Translations under genes and position numbers: made by a program
DNA from: a virus
Reading direction: 5' to 3' (one strand)
IMG/VR virus record: IMGVR_UViG_3300020200_002664
Coordinates: 1-27,380 of that record
Length of the DNA: 27,380 bases
Notes under the pieces: model-generated
What the model was told of the DNA's origin: nothing
What the model saw: the letters and a program-made list of their open reading frames with translations, nothing else
The model's database searches: none
Shown here: piece by piece, positions 21,337 to 27,380 of the stretch
How the letters are laid out: every line of letters begins with the position of its first letter
How positions within the stretch are numbered: position 1 is the stretch's first letter

Positions 21337-21638
21337 TTTGTTATATCCTCCTTTTGGGATAATGGGTTGTTATGGCGGTCAGAACGCTAGCAGATCTTGT
21401 TCGTCTTTGCAACTCGTAGAGAGAAAAATGTTTCGAATTTTTCGTGGCAACCTGTATGTAGATATATAAACTAGCATATATGGGTAAAAAAATAGAGGAA
21501 AAATATTTTACATCAAGCTTAGGTTATATAAACCTATAAAAACTGAAATATATATAAGATATAAGGAAAAAATTTAAGGGGGTAATGATTATTGTATACG
21601 TATAGGCTATATTTTTAACTAGCCTACTACCGTATACG
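21337..21638. other. AT-rich non-coding boundary between the phage modules
   Basis: About 300 bases without a gene, between the minus-strand module and the plus-strand cassette array. It holds a small palindrome (AGGTT-ATATA-AACCT, 21521-21535) and the larger inverted repeat at 21594-21637. It must carry the promoter of the 55-residue gene; I see no convincing consensus for it. Confidence 0.6.
21594..21637. repeat. Bipartite inverted repeat before the cassette array
   Basis: GTATACG (21594-21600) pairs with CGTATAC (21631-21637), and inside it GGCTA (21604-21608) pairs with TAGCC (from 21620). It lies directly upstream of the first array promoter and could be an operator, terminator or replication site. 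Confidence 0.5.
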
Positions 21639-21662
21639 TTATATTATATAAATGTTCTGATG
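21639..21662 (+). promoter_or_regulatory. Array promoter element 1
   Basis: TATAAAT at 21647-21653, seven bases, TG at 21661. Drives the first 58-residue gene. Confidence 0.65.
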
Positions 21663-21689
21663 CGCAATTTCTCGAGAAAGGAGACTCTC

Positions 21690-21866
21690 ATGCGTAGCAA
21701 GAAAGAGCAAGCCGCTCGAATTGCTGACCTTTGCAAGAAGGCTGAAGTCGCTGGCACCCGCCACGGCCAAGCCATCCGTAAGGCACGAGTCACGACAGGC
21801 CAAGCCGTTCAGGTTGGCGCTGCTGTGTCTTGGTCGTACGTCCGCAAGACCGTCAGCAACGCTTAA
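21690..21866 (+). CDS. 58-residue basic helical protein, copy 1 of 3
   Basis: Start ATG 21690 follows GAAAGGAGAC; the in-frame ATG at 21660 lies upstream of the Shine-Dalgarno in a conserved leader and is rejected. Begins MRSKKEQAARIADLCKKAEV, then RHGQAIRKARVTTGQAV and SWSYVRKT. Basic and helical; no known family. Copies at 22854 and 24099 keep the pattern RHGxAIRxARxTTGQAVQ. The leader contains TTTCTCGAGAAA, a perfect palindrome abutting GGAG, so folding could affect translation. A nucleic-acid-binding or host-takeover role is possible but unproven. Confidence 0.75.
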   Translation: MRSKKEQAARIADLCKKAEVAGTRHGQAIRKARVTTGQAVQVGAAVSWSYVRKTVSNA

Positions 21867-21881
21867 GCAAGTCCCTTCCAG

Positions 21882-21899
21882 CCCCGACTCTGTTCGGGG
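21882..21899 (+). terminator. 3' hairpin of copy 1
   Basis: CCCCGA...TCGGGG stem, not followed by a U-tract. Confidence 0.5.
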
Positions 21900-21912
21900 T
21901 TGGTAAGGTGAG

Positions 21913-21938
21913 TTTATATATATATAAATATGTGGTTG
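21913..21938 (+). promoter_or_regulatory. Array promoter element 2
   Basis: TATAAAT at 21923-21929, TG at 21937. Followed by a 7-bp leader hairpin GACACAC/GTGTGTC. Confidence 0.65.
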
Positions 21939-21994
21939 GGAACAGACACACAATCCCGTGTGTCGTCCTACTAGTCCACAGAAAGGGGACTATC

Positions 21995-22216
21995 GTGAGC
22001 ACACTCACCGTCGACGTTAACGTGTTTGCAGACACGGTCAACGACAAGACAGAGATCCTTCTCGATGCTGCTCGTGCTCTGCTCCGTGCAGAAGCCGAGA
22101 TTGCCGTCGCGAAGGAAGAGCTACACAAGGCCATCACAGAACGCAAGTTCTTCGTTGACGGCGTCTTGTTTCAGCTCGTCAAAGACAGCAAGACCACTGG
22201 GCTTCCTGTTATTTGA
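21995..22216 (+). CDS. 73-residue helical protein, unknown function
   Basis: GTG start after AGAAAGGGGAC. The leader carries GACACAC/GTGTGTC and a second stem AGTCC/GGACT that would include the Shine-Dalgarno. The protein (STLTVDVNVFADTVNDKTEI, then RALLRAEAEIAVAKEELHK) is mostly one long amphipathic helix, possibly a coiled coil. Longer in-frame extensions would read through the promoter and are rejected. Confidence 0.65.
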   Translation: MSTLTVDVNVFADTVNDKTEILLDAARALLRAEAEIAVAKEELHKAITERKFFVDGVLFQLVKDSKTTGLPVI

Positions 22217-22221
22217 GTCGT

Positions 22222-22259
22222 TGTACATCTACCACCTTTACGGGTGGTAGCTCTGTACA
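22222..22259 (+). terminator. Compound 3' hairpin
   Basis: Outer stem TGTACA/TGTACA and inner TACCACC/GGGTGGTA. Confidence 0.6.
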
Positions 22260-22262
22260 GTC

Positions 22263-22286
22263 TATATTTATATAAATATTTGTATG
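22263..22286 (+). promoter_or_regulatory. Array promoter element 3 (palindromic)
   Basis: TATAAAT at 22271-22277, TG at 22285. The core ATATTTATATAAATAT is a perfect palindrome and could fire both ways. Confidence 0.65.
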
Positions 22287-22391
22287 ATGTCAGATTGCTC
22301 TGAGACATCAGTTGCGCCCCCAGGAGTGGGGAGTCGACGCAGCTTAAACGAGCAGCACAGCAACACACTCTGCGACTGAGTGTGTTGTTTT
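22285..22391 (+). ncRNA. Structured RNA family A, copy 1
   Basis: No ORF follows the promoter. Stem TGATGTC (22285-22291) with GACATCA (22304-22310) encloses a loop conserved in copy 2 (AGATTGCTCTGA). Next CCCC/GGGG (22317-22331), a conserved stretch GTCGACGCAGCTTAAA, and a terminator stem AACACACTC/GAGTGTGTT followed by GTTTT. Copy 2 at 23534 differs at paired positions in a compensating way. Function unknown. Confidence 0.7.
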
Positions 22392-22395
22392 GTGC

Positions 22396-22422
22396 TTTTA
22401 TATATATATAAATGTTTGTGTG
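22396..22422 (+). promoter_or_regulatory. Array promoter element 4
   Basis: TATAAAT at 22407-22413, TG at 22421. Confidence 0.65.
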
Positions 22423-22560
22423 CAGGAGGGTCTGGGCAACCTGATCCTGTTTAAGCGACCCATTGGTGGAGATTTGTGACTGCTTAGCAGCTCATCTCAC
22501 AGTACCTTGTACCGCTTGACACATCGCTCTAGGAGAAAGCTACCCCTTTGTGGGTAGTAA
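22421..22560 (+). ncRNA. Structured RNA B (single copy)
   Basis: No plausible ORF between promoter 4 and promoter 5. Possible helices: GGGTC (22428) with GACCC (22457); a longer arm around CTGC-TTA-GCAG closed by GAGAT/ATCTC; and a terminal hairpin CTACCC/GGGTAG (22540-22557). Not recognised as tRNA, tmRNA, SRP or 6S RNA. Confidence 0.5.
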
Positions 22561-22569
22561 GTAACCTAG

Positions 22570-22595
22570 TTTATATAGATATAAATATGTGGTTG
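22570..22595 (+). promoter_or_regulatory. Array promoter element 5
   Basis: TATAAAT at 22580-22586, TG at 22594. Leads into the shared GCGG/CCGC leader hairpin. Confidence 0.65.
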
Positions 22596-22619
22596 CGGTA
22601 TGTCCCGCAGGAGGTTTCC

Positions 22620-22760
22620 ATGTCTTATTGGAAAGCGTACAAGAAGGTCGCTTCGACCAACTTGGCCATCTTCGGTTTGGTTGTTCTTGTTGCCTTTGTG
22701 GCAGCAATGGTCAACCCCAAGATTCGTCAAGAGGTCGAGCGTCGCTTCGAGAGGGCCTAA
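22620..22760 (+). CDS. 46-residue single-span membrane protein
   Basis: ATG after CCCGCAGGAGG. MSYWKAYKKVASTN, then a strong membrane helix (LAIFGLVVLVAFVAAMV, ~15-31) and the charged tail NPKIRQEVERRFERA. Likely an inner-membrane protein with one end basic. Uses the leader TGCGGTATGTCCCGC that four other, unrelated array genes also carry. Small phage membrane proteins of this kind often act in lysis or exclusion; the role here is unknown. Confidence 0.75.
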   Translation: MSYWKAYKKVASTNLAIFGLVVLVAFVAAMVNPKIRQEVERRFERA

Positions 22761-22765
22761 GTTAG

Positions 22766-22799
22766 TACACATCCACGCCTTATGGCGTGGCTCTGTGTA
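22766..22799 (+). terminator. Compound 3' hairpin
   Basis: Inner CCACGCC/GGCGTGG with loop TTAT, outer TACACA/TGTGTA. Confidence 0.6.
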
Positions 22800-22801
22800 G
22801 G

Positions 22802-22826
22802 TTATATATATATAAATATTCTTATG
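22802..22826 (+). promoter_or_regulatory. Array promoter element 6
   Basis: TATAAAT at 22811-22817, TG at 22825. Confidence 0.65.
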
Positions 22827-22853
22827 CGCACTTTCTCGAGAAAGGAGACTCGT

Positions 22854-23030
22854 ATGCGTAGCAAGAAAGAGCAGCAAGCTCGACTTGCGGAACTGCGTAA
22901 GAAAGCTGAAGCCGCTGGCACTCGCCACGGTGAAGCGATCCGCAGGGCACGTATCACGACAGGCCAAGCCGTTCAGGCTGCAGCCGTCACGTCGTGGTCG
23001 TACGTCCGCAAGACCGCAACCAACGCCTAA
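22854..23030 (+). CDS. 58-residue basic helical protein, copy 2 of 3
   Basis: Begins MRSKKEQQARLAELRKKAEA, then RHGEAIRRARITTGQAV and SWSYVRKTATNA. Leader with TTTCTCGAGAAAGGAGAC as in copies 1 and 3. Closer to copy 3 than to copy 1, and shares with copy 3 the same 9-bp 3' hairpin, so the whole unit (promoter to hairpin) was duplicated. Confidence 0.75.
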   Translation: MRSKKEQQARLAELRKKAEAAGTRHGEAIRRARITTGQAVQAAAVTSWSYVRKTATNA

Positions 23031-23036
23031 GTAATT

Positions 23037-23058
23037 CCCTGGCCCGCGAGGGTCAGGG
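23037..23058 (+). terminator. 3' hairpin of copy 2
   Basis: CCCTGGCCC/GGGTCAGGG with a GCGA tetraloop; no U-tract. Confidence 0.6.
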
Positions 23059-23068
23059 GTTACCATTG

Positions 23069-23092
23069 TATATATATATAAATATTGATCTG
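23069..23092 (+). promoter_or_regulatory. Array promoter element 7
   Basis: TATAAAT at 23077-23083, TG at 23091; shared leader hairpin follows. Confidence 0.65.
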
Positions 23093-23117
23093 CGGTATGT
23101 CCCGCTGGAGGTAAGTT

Positions 23118-23318
23118 ATGTATTTCTTTTGGAGTTATTGGAAAGTTGGCATTGTTCACATGCCAGCTGAAGCTAACGAAGGCTTTGCTATGGATTTTAT
23201 CCATGTTGGTCCATTTGCTTGGGCCATTGCTGAGCATGAGTTGTGGGTTTTTCTACCTTATCGTTGGTATCGCCCTAGCGATCCTTGGGATGTTAGGTTT
23301 ATTTTCCCTCGTAAGTAA
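23118..23318 (+). CDS. 66-residue aromatic-rich protein, unknown function
   Basis: ATG after GGAGGTAAGTT. Begins MYFFWSYWKVGIVHMPAEAN and ends WYRPSDPWDVRFIFPRK. Very rich in Trp, Phe and Tyr. A hydrophobic stretch in the middle (IHVGPFAWAIAEHELWVFL) could associate with a membrane. Shared leader TGCGGTATGTCCCGC. Confidence 0.65.
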   Translation: MYFFWSYWKVGIVHMPAEANEGFAMDFIHVGPFAWAIAEHELWVFLPYRWYRPSDPWDVRFIFPRK

Positions 23319-23323
23319 TTTTT

Positions 23324-23368
23324 AGCTGTTAACTGTTTGTACCACCTTTTGGGGTGGTACTTACAGCT
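23324..23368 (+). terminator. Compound 3' hairpin
   Basis: Inner GTACCACC/GGTGGTAC, outer AGCTGT/ACAGCT. Confidence 0.6.
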
Positions 23369-23370
23369 AC

Positions 23371-23396
23371 TTTATATTTATATAAATACTTTCCTG
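23371..23396 (+). promoter_or_regulatory. Array promoter element 8 (palindromic)
   Basis: TATAAAT at 23381-23387, TG at 23395. Confidence 0.65.
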
Positions 23397-23500
23397 CCGC
23401 TCAACACTACCAATCTCTTGAGTACATGCTGTGACGAACTTCACGGTTACGAGCGCTGAAGGACCCGAATTACCACGACGGTGGTGATCTCTGGGTCTTT
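23395..23500 (+). ncRNA. Structured RNA C (single copy)
   Basis: No ORF between promoters 8 and 9. Possible stems CTCAA/TTGAG and GTGA/TCAC, and a terminal hairpin GACCC...ACCAC-GACG-GTGGT...GGGTC (23462-23497) followed by TTTC. No known family recognised. Confidence 0.45.
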
Positions 23501-23509
23501 CATGTTCAG

Positions 23510-23535
23510 TTTATATATATATAAATTTGTGTATG
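23510..23535 (+). promoter_or_regulatory. Array promoter element 9
   Basis: TATAAAT at 23520-23526, TG at 23534. Confidence 0.65.
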
Positions 23536-23645
23536 ACGTCAGATTGCTCTGAAACGTCAGTTGTGCCCCGTGCTACCGTGGGAGTCGACGCAGCTTAAAT
23601 GAGCACACAAACACACACCCGTTCGACTGGGTGTGTTGTTTTGTG
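23534..23645 (+). ncRNA. Structured RNA family A, copy 2
   Basis: Same layout as copy 1: TGACGT/ACGTCA first stem around the conserved AGATTGCTCTGA, then GTCGACGCAGCTTAAA, and terminator ACACACCC/GGGTGTGT followed by TGTTTT. Relative to copy 1 a T-A pair in stem 1 is C-G here, and a T-A pair in the terminator is C-G, so pairing is maintained while sequence changes. Confidence 0.7.
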
Positions 23646-23672
23646 TTTTATATATATATAAATATTCGTTTG
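23646..23672 (+). promoter_or_regulatory. Array promoter element 10
   Basis: TATAAAT at 23657-23663, TG at 23671; shared leader hairpin follows. Confidence 0.65.
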
Positions 23673-23697
23673 CGGTATGTCCCGCTGGAGGTAAGTT

Positions 23698-23880
23698 ATG
23701 TTCGATCCGTATGAGCTTCCGATAGGTCGTCTTCTTCGCTTTGTGTGTGAGAATCCACACGTTGCGAAAGATGTCCTTGCGGCTATGAATTTCCTCAGCC
23801 CTGGGGAAATTCTTCACATGCTCACTGAAGAAGTCACGTCGCCAGACGTCGATTCTTCTGGGGAACTCACACCTTTTTAG
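23698..23880 (+). CDS. 60-residue helical protein, unknown function
   Basis: ATG after GGAGGTAAGTT. MFDPYELPIGRLLRFVCENP, then HVAKDVLAAMNFLSPGEILH and an acidic, disordered-looking tail (EEVTSPDVDSSGELTPF). Leader TGCGGTATGTCCCGC. The last codons form part of the 3' hairpin. Confidence 0.65.
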   Translation: MFDPYELPIGRLLRFVCENPHVAKDVLAAMNFLSPGEILHMLTEEVTSPDVDSSGELTPF

Positions 23881-23893
23881 GTGTGGTTTTCCC
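23860..23893 (+). terminator. 3' hairpin overlapping the stop codon
   Basis: CACACC/GGTGTG with outer GGGAA/TTCCC. Confidence 0.55.
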
Positions 23894-23894
23894 A

Positions 23895-23921
23895 TTTTAT
23901 ATGTATATAAATATTTTGTTG
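23895..23921 (+). promoter_or_regulatory. Array promoter element 11
   Basis: TATAAAT at 23906-23912, TG at 23920. Confidence 0.65.
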
Positions 23922-24045
23922 GCGATTGTGGTCAGCTCGTCACGAGTGGCACCAGGAGTGTGCATATCTGCGCTCGTTGGATGGCTTATGCTCCAAGTGA
24001 CCTCACATACACACACTCATTAGATTGGGTGTGTGTTATTGTGAG
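23920..24045 (+). ncRNA. Structured RNA E (single copy)
   Basis: No ORF between promoters 11 and 12. Contains CTCG-TCA-CGAG, a longer arm GGAG..GCATA / TATGC..TCC, and a long terminal hairpin: CTCAC/GTGAG enclosing ACACACACTC/GGGTGTGTGT (24002-24045). The terminal hairpin resembles that of family A; the body does not. Confidence 0.5.
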
Positions 24046-24071
24046 TTTATATATATATAAATATTTTGATG
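24046..24071 (+). promoter_or_regulatory. Array promoter element 12
   Basis: TATAAAT at 24056-24062, TG at 24070. Confidence 0.65.
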
Positions 24072-24098
24072 CGCAACTTCTCGAGAAAGGAGATTCGT

Positions 24099-24275
24099 AT
24101 GCGTAGCAAGTCCGAGCAGAAGGCTCGTCTTGCGGAACTCCGTGCGAAAGCAGAGACTCTTGGCATCCGCCATGGTCGAGCGATTCGCAGAGCACGTATC
24201 ACGACAGGCCAGGCCGTTCAGGCTGCAGCCGTCATGTCGTGGTCGTATGTCCGCAAGACCGCCACAACTGCCTAA
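24099..24275 (+). CDS. 58-residue basic helical protein, copy 3 of 3
   Basis: Begins MRSKSEQKARLAELRAKAET, then RHGRAIRRARITTGQAV and SWSYVRKTATTA. The leader keeps CTTCTCGAGAAAGGAGA in the same position. See copy 1 for family description. Confidence 0.75.
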   Translation: MRSKSEQKARLAELRAKAETLGIRHGRAIRRARITTGQAVQAAAVMSWSYVRKTATTA

Positions 24276-24281
24276 GTGATT

Positions 24282-24303
24282 CCCTGGCCCGTGAGGGTCA
24301 GGG
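24282..24303 (+). terminator. 3' hairpin of copy 3
   Basis: CCCTGGCCC/GGGTCAGGG with a GTGA tetraloop; nearly identical to that of copy 2. Confidence 0.6.
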
Positions 24304-24311
24304 GTTACTGG

Positions 24312-24341
24312 TTTATATTTATATATATAAATTTTGTTATG
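24312..24341 (+). promoter_or_regulatory. Array promoter element 13
   Basis: TATAAAT at 24326-24332, TG at 24340. Confidence 0.65.
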
Positions 24342-24443
24342 CGAATTGGAGTTAGCTGGTACACCATCATGGTAGGTGTGGCTAGTTGGGTCTGGGAATC
24401 GCACGTTGCTGACATGCACCAATGAGCATGTCTTATGTAACGT
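24340..24443 (+). ncRNA. Structured RNA family D, copy 1
   Basis: No ORF. Stem TTAGC (24352-24356) with GCTAG (24381-24385), a conserved single-stranded TTGGGTCTGGGAATCGC, then stem CGTTGC (24404) with GTAACG (24437) enclosing GACATGC/GCATGTC (24411-24432) with the loop ACCAATGA. Copy 2 at 24974 supports each helix by covariation. Confidence 0.7.
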
Positions 24444-24445
24444 TA

Positions 24446-24470
24446 CTTTATATATATATAGGTTTATGTG
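24446..24470 (+). promoter_or_regulatory. Degenerate array promoter element
   Basis: TATATAG in place of TATAAAT, yet TG still follows after seven bases. The following ~50 bases are AT-rich and hold no gene or hairpin, so this looks like a decayed unit. Confidence 0.35.
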
Positions 24471-24517
24471 TATTATTATATTGTTATAAGGCATATAGTA
24501 TGTATTTAGTTTTACGA

Positions 24518-24542
24518 TTATATTGATATAAATGTTGGTGTG
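24518..24542 (+). promoter_or_regulatory. Array promoter element 14
   Basis: TATAAAT at 24527-24533, TG at 24541. Confidence 0.65.
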
Positions 24543-24662
24543 GAGCGCTGATGGCCTGTGAAGACACAGCGAAACGGTGGCATCAATAACTAGCTCGAGC
24601 TGCGACAAGAGCGCCGACCTCCCCCTAATCACTTAGCTTATGTGCTGAGTGATTGGGGTTTT
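24541..24662 (+). ncRNA. Structured RNA F with a strong intrinsic terminator
   Basis: No ORF. TGATG/CATCA encloses CTGTG-AAGA-CACAG, and GCGC near the 5' end can pair with GCGC at 24611. It ends in a near-perfect terminator, CCCCTAATCACTTAGC pairing with GCTGAGTGATTGGGG (24622-24658), then TTTT. The text CTGATG...CGAAAC recalls a hammerhead core but does not satisfy it. Confidence 0.6.
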
Positions 24663-24666
24663 ATGA

Positions 24667-24691
24667 TTATATTTATATAAATATATATGTG
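24667..24691 (+). promoter_or_regulatory. Array promoter element 15 (palindromic)
   Basis: TATAAAT at 24676-24682, TG at 24690. Confidence 0.65.
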
Positions 24692-24719
24692 GCCAAGTTC
24701 ACTGTCGAAAGGAGACATC

Positions 24720-24926
24720 GTGGCTTATCAAAGCTGGCACACAAACTGTAAGTTTGATGGTTGCACTGTTCGTCTGCGTGCGGGTCAAGGGCATTATGTC
24801 TGCGACCCGCATCCTCGAGCTTTGTGCGATGAGCACTTTGCTCAGGTTGCGCAGATGCGCAAGAATGCGCGACGTAAGAAGCGCATTTCTGCCATGCAAC
24901 CGCATTTGCCTATGGAAGGGATTTAA
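24720..24926 (+). CDS. 68-residue Cys/His zinc-binding protein
   Basis: GTG start after GAAAGGAGAC. The pattern C-x4-C (CKFDGC), then YVCDPH and LCDEHF forms two possible zinc sites, in the style of small treble-clef or RING-like knuckles. The C-terminal third is basic (RKNARRKKR). Likely nucleic-acid or protein binding. The longer in-frame ATG at 24687 would sit in the promoter and is rejected. Confidence 0.7.
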   Translation: MAYQSWHTNCKFDGCTVRLRAGQGHYVCDPHPRALCDEHFAQVAQMRKNARRKKRISAMQPHLPMEGI

Positions 24927-24941
24927 CCGTAAGGTTAAGTC
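24921..24941 (+). terminator. 3' hairpin including the stop codon
   Basis: TTAACC/GGTTAA with a GTAA loop, extended by GA/TC. Confidence 0.5.
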
Positions 24942-24948
24942 TCTTTCA

Positions 24949-24975
24949 TTTTATATGTATATAAATATTTGTCTG
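24949..24975 (+). promoter_or_regulatory. Array promoter element 16
   Basis: TATAAAT at 24960-24966, TG at 24974. Confidence 0.65.
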
Positions 24976-25077
24976 CGAGATGGAGCTAACTACTACACTA
25001 TCAGGGTAGATGTACTTAGTTGGGTCTGGGAATCGCGCGTTACTGACATGCACCAATGAGCATGTCAAAGTAACGTT
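24974..25077 (+). ncRNA. Structured RNA family D, copy 2
   Basis: Stem CTAA (24986) with TTAG (25016); conserved TTGGGTCTGGGAATCGC; CGTTAC (25038-25043) with GTAACG (25070-25075) enclosing GACATGC/GCATGTC (25045-25066). Against copy 1: T-G becomes C-G, G-C becomes A-T, and G-T becomes A-T, each pair kept. Confidence 0.7.
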
Positions 25078-25079
25078 AT

Positions 25080-25105
25080 TTTATATTGATATAAATGTAT
25101 GTTTG
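25080..25105 (+). promoter_or_regulatory. Array promoter element 17
   Basis: TATAAAT at 25090-25096, TG at 25104; shared leader hairpin follows. Confidence 0.65.
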
Positions 25106-25128
25106 CGGTATGTCCCGCGGGGGTAGTT

Positions 25129-25281
25129 ATGTTCACATGTGGTAAGTGTCGTATTCAGGCTGTTCCTGACGCCCAACGTTGCACGACCATGGAGATGGTT
25201 CGTGCTCATTATGGTGTTAAGCCTGTTGTGCAGGTTAAGCCCGTTAAGAAGCGTGTTCGAAAGACTCAGGCGAAAGCCTGA
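25129..25281 (+). CDS. 50-residue zinc-knuckle protein with basic tail
   Basis: ATG nine bases after CGCGGGGGT, using the shared leader. MFTCGKCRIQAVPDAQRCTT gives CxxC plus one further Cys; the tail VKPVKKRVRKTQAKA is strongly basic. Small nucleic-acid-binding protein is the likeliest class. The last six codons double as the 5' half of the terminator. Confidence 0.7.
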   Translation: MFTCGKCRIQAVPDAQRCTTMEMVRAHYGVKPVVQVKPVKKRVRKTQAKA

Positions 25282-25287
25282 GTTTTT
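25263..25287 (+). terminator. Intrinsic terminator overlapping the 50-residue gene's end
   Basis: ACTCAGGC-GAAA-GCCTGAGT followed by TTTT. Confidence 0.75.
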
Positions 25288-25321
25288 CCATTTTATATTT
25301 ATATAGATATAGATATTTATT

Positions 25322-25357
25322 TAGTATATATGATATATATGTTTAAATGTTTGTCTG
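25322..25357 (+). promoter_or_regulatory. Array promoter element 18 (TTTAAAT variant)
   Basis: TTTAAAT at 25342-25348, TG at 25356. Another AT element at 25291-25310 lacks the TG and looks like a remnant. Confidence 0.5.
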
Positions 25358-25433
25358 CTCAGTGTTAGTTCTATTTGCTGAGTCGGCCTGTGGTAGGAAC
25401 GCCTTCAAGTTCCCGCCAGATTGTGAGACTTCT

Positions 25434-25790
25434 ATGTCCGCATTCACATTTGCTGTGAACTTCGTCTCGACGAAGCCCAGCTCTACAGGGGAGTTTTATG
25501 CTCTCTTGAATCCCATTGGCACTGCGCCAGCGTATCAGCGTCTGGATGGCACTAAGTCGGTTACTTGGCAGATTTGGTTTGGTGAAACCAAAGCCGCTGA
25601 GTATTCTGCGATGCTCGAAGATGCCAAGAATCAACCGAATCACAGGTTGTTTGTGACGGCTGAGTTTGATGTACAGGTCAAGCCTGGTCTCAAACCTGGT
25701 CAGCAAACAAATCGCTTGGTTTTCAAGACCAAGGCTGTGAAGGAAGTCCGTCCTGTTCTGGTTGTTCCTACTCAGGACGAACTAGCTTAG
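25434..25790 (+). CDS. 118-residue beta-rich protein, unknown function
   Basis: Start chosen at ATG 25434; the upstream ATG 25347 lies at the promoter. MSAFTFAVNFVSTKPSSTGE, then VTWQIWFGETKAAEYSAMLE and LFVTAEFDVQVKPGLKPG. Alternating beta strands suggest a small beta-barrel, perhaps an OB-fold, but this is not demonstrated. The ~75-base leader holds CTCAG/CTGAG and GGAAC/GTTCC hairpins; the Shine-Dalgarno is weak. Confidence 0.65.
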   Translation: MSAFTFAVNFVSTKPSSTGEFYALLNPIGTAPAYQRLDGTKSVTWQIWFGETKAAEYSAMLEDAKNQPNHRLFVTAEFDVQVKPGLKPGQQTNRLVFKTKAVKEVRPVLVVPTQDELA

Positions 25791-25814
25791 GCGGTTTTCG
25801 TTTGCCAATGCTCT

Positions 25815-25853
25815 GCACACTTGCCACCATCAGTCGATGGTGGTAGGTGTTGC
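25815..25853 (+). terminator. 3' hairpin
   Basis: CCACCATC/GATGGTGG with outer ACAC/GTGT. Confidence 0.55.
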
Positions 25854-25857
25854 AAGG

Positions 25858-25897
25858 TTATATATATTTATTTATATTTGATATAAATTTTGTGATG
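25858..25897 (+). promoter_or_regulatory. Array promoter element 19
   Basis: TATAAAT at 25882-25888, TG at 25896; shared leader hairpin follows. Confidence 0.65.
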
Positions 25898-25921
25898 CGG
25901 TATGTCCCGCTGGAGGTAATT

Positions 25922-26146
25922 GTGTGTTTTTCGTTTTATGGTAGTGCAATGCCTGAGAAGCTTGCTGAACTGGTTGCTTACCAGTTTGAGCTTGATTACA
26001 GGAATTATTGTGAAGAATTTGTTAATCCCATTCAAAGTGACATTGTTCTGGTTGTTCCCTTGACTAATGATGAGTACTTTCGTGAATGGTTTGCTGAGTT
26101 CTCCAATGATGTTTCTTGTTGGTCATTGCGCCAAAGGGTAGTTTAG
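25922..26146 (+). CDS. 74-residue acidic protein, unknown function
   Basis: GTG start after GCTGGAGGTAATT, chosen by the shared leader. (V)CFSFYGSAMPEKLAELVAYQ, then FELDYRNYCEEF and FREWFAEFSNDV. Acidic, helical, aromatic-rich; a DNA-mimic or host-inhibitor role is conceivable but only by composition. Confidence 0.6.
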   Translation: MCFSFYGSAMPEKLAELVAYQFELDYRNYCEEFVNPIQSDIVLVVPLTNDEYFREWFAEFSNDVSCWSLRQRVV

Positions 26147-26155
26147 CCCAATGTG

Positions 26156-26186
26156 AAGAGTTCCGGTCCGTAAGGATCGGGCTCTT
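26156..26186 (+). terminator. Compound 3' hairpin
   Basis: CCGGTCC/GGATCGG with a GTAA loop, outer AAGAG/CTCTT. Confidence 0.6.
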
Positions 26187-26249
26187 TACATTTTATATGT
26201 ATATATTTATGTTTATAAAACATTTATATTATTTAAGTTTTATTTTTTA

Positions 26250-26275
26250 TATTATATATTCTAAATAGTGGCGTG
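26250..26275 (+). promoter_or_regulatory. Array promoter element 20 (TCTAAAT variant)
   Basis: TCTAAAT at 26260-26266, TG at 26274. The leader starts at once with GGTGCTCTC pairing with GAGAGTACC around CATAG/CTATG. Confidence 0.5.
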
Positions 26276-26369
26276 GTGCTCTCGGCTGTTCATAGATTTT
26301 CTATGATTTTCAGAGAGAGTACCAAGAAATAACCTACTCAACCAATGTCAAAGTTTAGGAGACTTTAGA

Positions 26370-26798
26370 GTGGCAACAATCCAAATCAACGCAGCTAGCG
26401 TCAACAAGAAAACAGGTCATTTCGTCGAAGGCAACGGACGCAGAAAGTTTCTCGTGTCCATTGTGAAGTATGACCCTGAGACTATTCAGCCTTCTTACGA
26501 ACAGAATGTAAGGCGAAGTGTCAGTGTCTGGCTTCCGCTCAAGGCGGAGAATGACAAAGGACACGAAATCACACTCGCTGAGAATGTGACCCGAGCACTT
26601 GAGAATCTCAAGAAGCAAGGCAAGGGAGAGCGTCTTCATCTCAATGCCGTCATTCGTAATCTCACAATGGGGGAACCCGCTGTTGGAGAGAATGACATTG
26701 TCTATCAAGACTTGACAGTCACGATTGACAACTCAGGGCCAAAGAGCATCACCAAGGTAGCACCAGCACCTTGGTCGATTGTCGAAAGCGACCTCTAG
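26370..26798 (+). CDS. 142-residue beta-rich protein, unknown function
   Basis: GTG start after AGGAGACTTTAGA. MATIQINAASVNKKTGHFVE, then RRKFLVSIVKYDPETIQP, SVSVWLPLKAEND and RLHLNAVIRNLTMG. Beta-rich with a central helical stretch (ENVTRALENLKKQGKGE); an OB-fold or other single-stranded DNA-binding type is possible but unproven. A highly structured ~95-base leader precedes it. Last and largest ORF of the array style. An opposite-strand ORF here is an artefact. Confidence 0.7.
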   Translation: MATIQINAASVNKKTGHFVEGNGRRKFLVSIVKYDPETIQPSYEQNVRRSVSVWLPLKAENDKGHEITLAENVTRALENLKKQGKGERLHLNAVIRNLTMGEPAVGENDIVYQDLTVTIDNSGPKSITKVAPAPWSIVESDL

Positions 26799-26850
26799 TC
26801 GTTCCTGTCAGCAAACTGCCCATCAGTTTCGAGTGAGTATGTGTGGGAGA

Positions 26851-27089: not shown

Positions 27090-27380
27090 AAAAAACAATC
27101 TTCTAATAAATATGATTTGCCTTGTTCGGCTGGGCACCGTAACAAGCAAAACAAAAAAGGGGAGACAACTCAGGAGCGTACGGTCTTAGCATCCTTCTTT
27201 AATGCTAGACGGCTCATTCGCGAGTGCGACCCATCGTCTGGTTTCGGCTTCGTTTTCCTAAAACGAGCACACTCTCTTATCAACTATACAAACATTATGT
27301 TATAAAATAATGATTTATTGTTGGACAAACGCCCATTTTATGGTGCGTGCAGGGGAGTACCCATACTGACTAACTAACCA
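27090..27380. other. Stretch without a supported gene at the right edge
   Basis: An open frame over 27117-27305 lacks an ATG/GTG start and a ribosome-binding site. CGTTTT-CCT-AAAACG (about 27252-27266) is a hairpin, and ACGC/GCGT lies near 27329-27345. AATAAAT at 27105-27111 is a weak array-promoter lookalike with TG after six instead of seven bases. Confidence 0.4.

Follow-up and report, generated by a model that had tools for sequence, protein, structure and literature searches.

A probable modular array of about twenty mini-transcription units in an uncultured phage and its relatives

The locus and its gene content

The window analysed here (W) is a 27,380-bp virus contig, IMG/VR record IMGVR_UViG_3300020200_002664. 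Between positions 21647 and 26800 its + strand carries about twenty short units, each introduced by the element TATAAAT-N7-TG or a variant of it and followed either by a tiny open reading frame (ORF; 46-142 aa in the window) with a strong Shine-Dalgarno sequence (SD) or by sequence without a credible ORF. The units probably form a modular cassette array with host-directed output, in which each has its own promoter, product and terminator. Related loci are present in at least nine uncultured phage contigs of a little-known group of large phages, designated here by numbers such as G001 or L142, and arrays with the same element occur in G001, G002, G011, G006/G009 and G012, plus L142 and L144. 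The window terminase, which has a T4-type domain, retrieves many relatives in an IMG/VR search; its nearest named match, at 36%, is Moorella phage MTATph1, a phage without a comparable array. No tRNA was found in the window. The array ORFs are also distinct in composition, with a GC content at third codon positions of 0.51 vs 0.27 for the other window genes.

The coding units, whose ORF starts were read from the sequence, include three copies of the MRSKKEQ family, also present in G001 and G002: unit 1 (21647-21922; element 21647-21662; ORF 21690-21866, 58 aa; 3' hairpin), unit 6 (22811-23076; ORF 22854-23030) and unit 12 (24056-24325; ORF 24099-24275). Unit 2 (21923-22270) has its element, a 5' hairpin GGGA..TCCC and a GTG-start ORF (21995-22216, 73 aa) with a homologue in G001 (family PG), while unit 5 (22580-22810; ORF 22620-22760, 46 aa) encodes the small hydrophobic protein MSYWxAYKKV of family PA, present in nine arrays. 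Unit 7 (23077-23380) combines the 5' hairpin GCGGtatgtCCCGC with an ORF at 23118-23318. Homologues in G001 are also found for unit 10 (23657-23905; ORF 23698-23880, 60 aa; family PH) and for unit 17 (25090-25341; 5' hairpin; ORF 25129-25281, 50 aa). The GTG-start ORF of unit 15 (24676-24959; ORF 24720-24926; family PI) is Cys/His-rich, zinc-ribbon-like by eye, and has a 44% match in G008; unit 19 (25882-26259) likewise has a GTG-start ORF, at 25922-26146.

The last unit, unit 20 (26260-26800), is headed by a TCTAAAT variant element (26260-26275) and contains the anchor gene (ORF 26370-26798, 142 aa), of which the 118-aa ORF of unit 18 (25342-25881; TTTAAAT variant element; ORF 25434-25790) is likely a paralogue. 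As a single query the anchor gene found no relative among viral contigs; as an alignment query it found three. The predicted structure of its product is OB-fold-like (mean pLDDT 79), and the best matches of the model are single-stranded DNA-binding proteins (SSBs), at weak scores (PDB E 0.08, BFVD E 0.013, Z 5.7), which weakly suggests an SSB/OB-fold-like protein.

The remaining units are RNA-only, and five RNA families (rA, rB, rE, rF and rG) recur within or between phages. Family rA comprises unit 3 (22271-22406), which has no ORF with an SD, and its paralogues unit 9 (23520-23656) and the rA-like unit 11 (23906-24055). Unit 4 (22407-22579; GGGTCTGGGCAACC) belongs to rB and has homologues in G001 and G002. 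Family rE is represented by unit 13 (24326-24526), in which a decayed element follows near 24447-24475, by unit 16 (24960-25089) and by one G001 unit, at 90% mean column identity. Unit 14 (24527-24675; GGAGCG..CGAAACRRTGGCA), of family rF, is kept in L142, G009 and G012; its one helix shows two compensatory pairs among four sequences, a score matched by 14 of 500 shuffles, and this support is modest because the sequences are so few. Unit 8 (23381-23519) completes the set. A search of Rfam gave only matches far below the gathering scores of the families concerned.

Both edges of the locus are conserved. On the left, an inverted repeat (GTATACGTATAGGCTA..TAGCCTA..GTATACG; 21592-21640, unstranded) lies directly before the first element and has equivalents with differing arms in G009, G012, L144, G024 and G004. 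On the right, the anchor unit is kept in G001, G009 and G012, where TCTAAAT is found as well, so that this spelling is a fixed variant at the final gene. The flanks show features of their own. The stretch at 21400-21640, ahead of the array, is AT-rich with short repeats, is similar in G009, G012, G004 and G024, and may serve in control or as an origin of replication. Past the array, 27100-27330 (CCTTGTTCGGCTGGGCACCG..GGCTCATTCGCGAGTGCGACCCATCGTCTGG) is near-identical in G001 and is possibly another conserved RNA. In the G009 extension (L125 end, L136) the motif CATACAAAG stands ahead of several genes downstream of the array, with four intergenic copies.

The repeated element

The original prediction had listed 18 exact TATAAAT copies plus TTTAAAT and TCTAAAT variants, and the motif counts bear this out. 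All 18 copies of TATAAAT-N7-TG lie on the + strand between 21647 and 25882, with none elsewhere in the window, and the variants are at 25342 (TTTAAAT) and 26260 (TCTAAAT). Shuffles of the whole window gave a mean of 0.75 copies and at most 5, while 500 dinucleotide shuffles of the array alone averaged 0.04 copies and reached at most 1; the opposite strand of the array has no copy. The fixed spacing also stands, since TG follows at offset 7 in 18/18 array TATAAAT. The seven bases between are not freely variable as had been proposed: the first is A in 61% and the second T in 94%, and the element is thus better written as TATAAATAT, 6 nt, G. Similarly, the view that upstream sequences are unrelated and lack a -35 box has to be narrowed, as the units have TTTATATnTA in common at -25 to -16 (numbered with the G as +1); nothing upstream of this block is common to them, and in this sense the absence of a -35 box holds.

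The element is confined to unit boundaries, as the prediction had expected. In G006 (150 kb) all out-of-array hits fall within ORFs, as does the single such hit in G024 (145 kb); no element was found upstream of out-of-array genes in these two phages or ahead of the window genes on the - strand. A scan of the collection for TATAAATATATCNNTG returned single background matches only.

A different motif marks the other genes. TACTATA is the top enriched 7-mer upstream of out-of-array genes (20/152 windows vs 2.4 expected), and it belongs to TTACTATA, which is strongly enriched ahead of structural and other out-of-array genes in G006, G024, G008 and W. These phages therefore have at least one further promoter-like class, and TTACTATA is probably their second promoter class.

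Unit boundaries and transcript ends

That the TG marks the 5' end of each unit, as first proposed, is supported by comparison of 53 homologous unit pairs, in which identity is 0.28-0.49 at three N7 positions vs 1.00 at TG, with homology continuing downstream. In addition, several 5' hairpins start at the G of TG (that of unit 7; GTAGGCaatcccGCCTAC vs GTAGACaattccGTCTAC), and their arms co-vary from phage to phage. G023 does not retain the T, but its -1 is mostly a pyrimidine and its +1 mostly G. From these sequence comparisons, the G of TG would be the transcript start (+1).

Downstream of this putative start, the SD is often displayed in a hairpin loop. With a stem of at least 4 bp, this is the case for 48 of the 74 coding units of ten arrays, vs 13.7 expected (maximum 25); with a stem of at least 5 the count is 31 vs 3.3. 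At the other end, a terminator-like scan found 16 hairpins vs 5.4 expected, both strands included, and a strong 3' hairpin (z < -2; median z -4.3) lies in the last 62 nt of 15/19 units. In units 13, 17 and 19 the hairpin sits further upstream, ahead of a long AT spacer. The median z of the 3' hairpins is about -4 or lower in every array except that of G011. The claim that units are monocistronic or RNA-only and end in their own hairpins is supported.

Cassette exchange and lineage-wide changes of the element

Comparison between phages also bears out the modular character of the array. Between the shared units PA (MSYW) and PC (MKHE) each array has different whole units, and unit PN has moved, being mid-array in L144 (L144_11) and near the right end in G009 (G009_12). 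Gain, loss, duplication and movement of units thus involve whole cassettes. The contig end of G011 (L123) has, within one array, three paralogous units for a 37-aa membrane-like protein of the MKTSYFG family, likely a recent duplication.

The element itself differs between lineages, and each change covers the array as a set. Most of the phages have the form TATAAATAT-N6-G. In G024, 10/12 elements have N6, which amounts to losing the A at -8 and gives the form TATAAATT-N6-G. The arrays of G023 and G004 have TTTAAAT-type and ATATCGGCATG-type elements, respectively, while G008 has eight copies of TTTTATGGGT in a region of unit homologues beside recA, with the repeat form TTTTATGGGTA..CTAGACC. Such set-wise change could be due either to concerted change by recombination or to co-evolution with a factor. 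A start signal that switches as a set between lineages suggests fast co-evolution of promoter and reader.

Candidate readers of the element

The original prediction had proposed recognition by a phage sigma factor or a phage RNA polymerase. A T7-type RNA polymerase was not found in the relatives (T7 control positive), and a sigma-70 region 2 family search of them gave no match. A divergent sigma-70-family gene is nevertheless present in G006, G007 and G008 (phrog_351, E 7e-7 to 5e-5; PF08281, best E 5e-5, which falls short of its cut-off; N-terminal part PF12645, E 7e-5), at L304:836-1683 (G006:132713-133542), L302:1381-2239 and L303:1435-2300. Its coding sequence does not stay in one reading frame: in all three phages the frame changes at the same place, about 20 nt past the N-terminal part, possibly by programmed frameshifting. 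A second frame change, not at a shared place, is seen in G006 and G008. A phage sigma factor may still be involved, and this protein could recognise the array elements, the TTACTATA class or neither of the two.

The array could also be served by plain host sigma-A promoters, the host holoenzyme alone being enough. In the proposed frame, position -11 is almost always A and position -7 almost always T, and sigma-70-like hexamers are seen by eye at some other genes of these phages. However, seven fixed bases and the lineage-wide switches of G023, G004 and G008 are unlike ordinary sigma-A promoters, and a general sigma-70 promoter scan of the array was at chance, the element not being the sigma-70 consensus; we regard this explanation as rather unlikely.

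The original assignment to T4-type late promoters, where a gp55-like sigma and the host RNA polymerase would read TATAAATA late in infection, does not hold up well. The element shares TATAAATA, the T4 late consensus, and the lack of a -35 box, and a divergent sigma-70-family gene is available in relatives. In T4, however, TATAAATA spans -13 to -6 (PMC1524935), whereas in the array it would span -15 to -8 if the G is +1, leaving a gap to the predicted start 2 nt longer. Its location is also a mismatch, as the motif is absent upstream of structural genes and TTACTATA, not TATAAAT, is enriched outside the array. Moreover, gp55 (phrog_234) was not found in 11 records of the group with a positive T4 control, although these contigs are fragments in which the gene could be missed. 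Late promoters of this type are accordingly an unlikely explanation.

It is very unlikely that the element is an AT-rich dyad serving as a recombination or transcript-processing site instead of a promoter. TTTATAT/ATATAAA does form a dyad with a 2-nt centre (TTTATATnnATATAAA in W), and cassettes are exchanged cleanly at unit boundaries, but the dyad is weak in other arrays, the element is directional at a fixed distance from a pyrimidine-purine start, 5' hairpins begin at the G, and a terminator-like hairpin already closes each unit.

Least probable of all is a phage multisubunit RNA polymerase of the phiKZ/AR9 kind: the extended AT-rich element with G after 6 nt equals the geometry of the AR9 early (virion RNA polymerase) promoter AAATATATATTAT-(6N)-G+1 (PMC5312081; the +1 of the array is predicted), but AR9 promoters are spread over the genome, the beta (phrog_3295) and beta' (PF00623) subunits were not found in the 11 records, including 145-203-kb contigs (AR9 control positive), a script without a positive control detected no NADFDGD-like motif in G006, G009x, G024 or W, and the match in spacing is a likeness only.

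A model for the array

A modular cassette array, akin to the PeSL cassettes discussed below, is thus the reading we favour. Each unit would begin with a promoter TATAAATAT-6 nt-G, with the G as +1 and no -35 box, followed by a structured 5' end that often displays the SD in a hairpin loop. Its product would be a single tiny ORF or a structured RNA, and a terminator hairpin would close it. An RNA polymerase, probably that of the host, would start at the G of TG and stop at the next hairpin, so that products would be made in parallel and independently of neighbouring units. A phage factor, for instance the divergent sigma-70-family protein of the relatives, may redirect this polymerase. In this way the array would likely produce small proteins and RNAs directed at the host, at a high level. 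Expression is probably early or middle, a weak suggestion drawn from the SSB-like anchor gene and from recA close by in W and G008.

Several observations weigh against this model. The sigma-like gene is also present in G007 and G008, where the TATAAAT-N7-TG array was not seen, which makes its link to the element no more than putative, and the G024 contig showed no copy of it. The T-tracts behind the hairpins are weak, so that termination may be partial. Finally, the phages are uncultured, and two scans of GTDB genomes with the terminase for a host gave no match.

A bolder form of the model, which we hold only tentatively, is that the array may be a lineage-specific regulon whose promoter is replaced as a set, tracking a fast-evolving, divergent, frame-split sigma, with the RNA-only units as new phage effector RNAs. 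In any case, each phage has in its array some 20 independent promoter-gene-terminator cassettes, a compact natural collection that recurs in many phages and shows paired promoter variation between lineages, which makes promoter-factor co-evolution and cassette exchange directly testable. It also brings to light dozens of small proteins and about five phage RNA families that have not been studied before and probably act on the host. The set-wise variation of the promoter is what makes the array worth following.

Relation to known systems

Promoter-carrying intergenic repeats are described for the haloviruses HGTV-1 and HF2 (PMC3950731, PMC8707807), and these resemble the array in their repeated AT-rich motifs ahead of many small ORFs; the HGTV-1 sequence differs in being of the archaeal BRE/TATA type (CGAAA..TTTA) and close to the start codon. 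A nearer parallel may be the PeSL mobile regulatory cassettes of T4-type phages (Arbiol 2010, Comeau 2014; via PMC4503421 and PMC3950731). These are promoter and stem-loop units flanking small ORFs and tied to modular gene shuffling. The array has both features, since terminator stem-loops and promoters are combined in the gaps separating its small ORFs and whole cassettes are shuffled (unit gain and loss, one moved unit). It differs in that its phages are not known T4-like phages, in that its AT element is -10-only and restricted to a single dense array, in its RNA-only units and in the variation of the element as a set between lineages.

In terms of function, the SPO1 host-takeover module clusters about 25 small genes whose promoters and ribosome sites are those of strongly expressed genes (PMC6873191, PMC10531801), and the array is likewise a cluster of small, highly expressible genes. 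In SPO1 several operons, with early promoters, hold these genes, whereas those of the array stand alone, each with its own hairpin, and are mixed with RNA genes. All in all, the best reading by analogy is that the array may work like the SPO1 host-takeover module.

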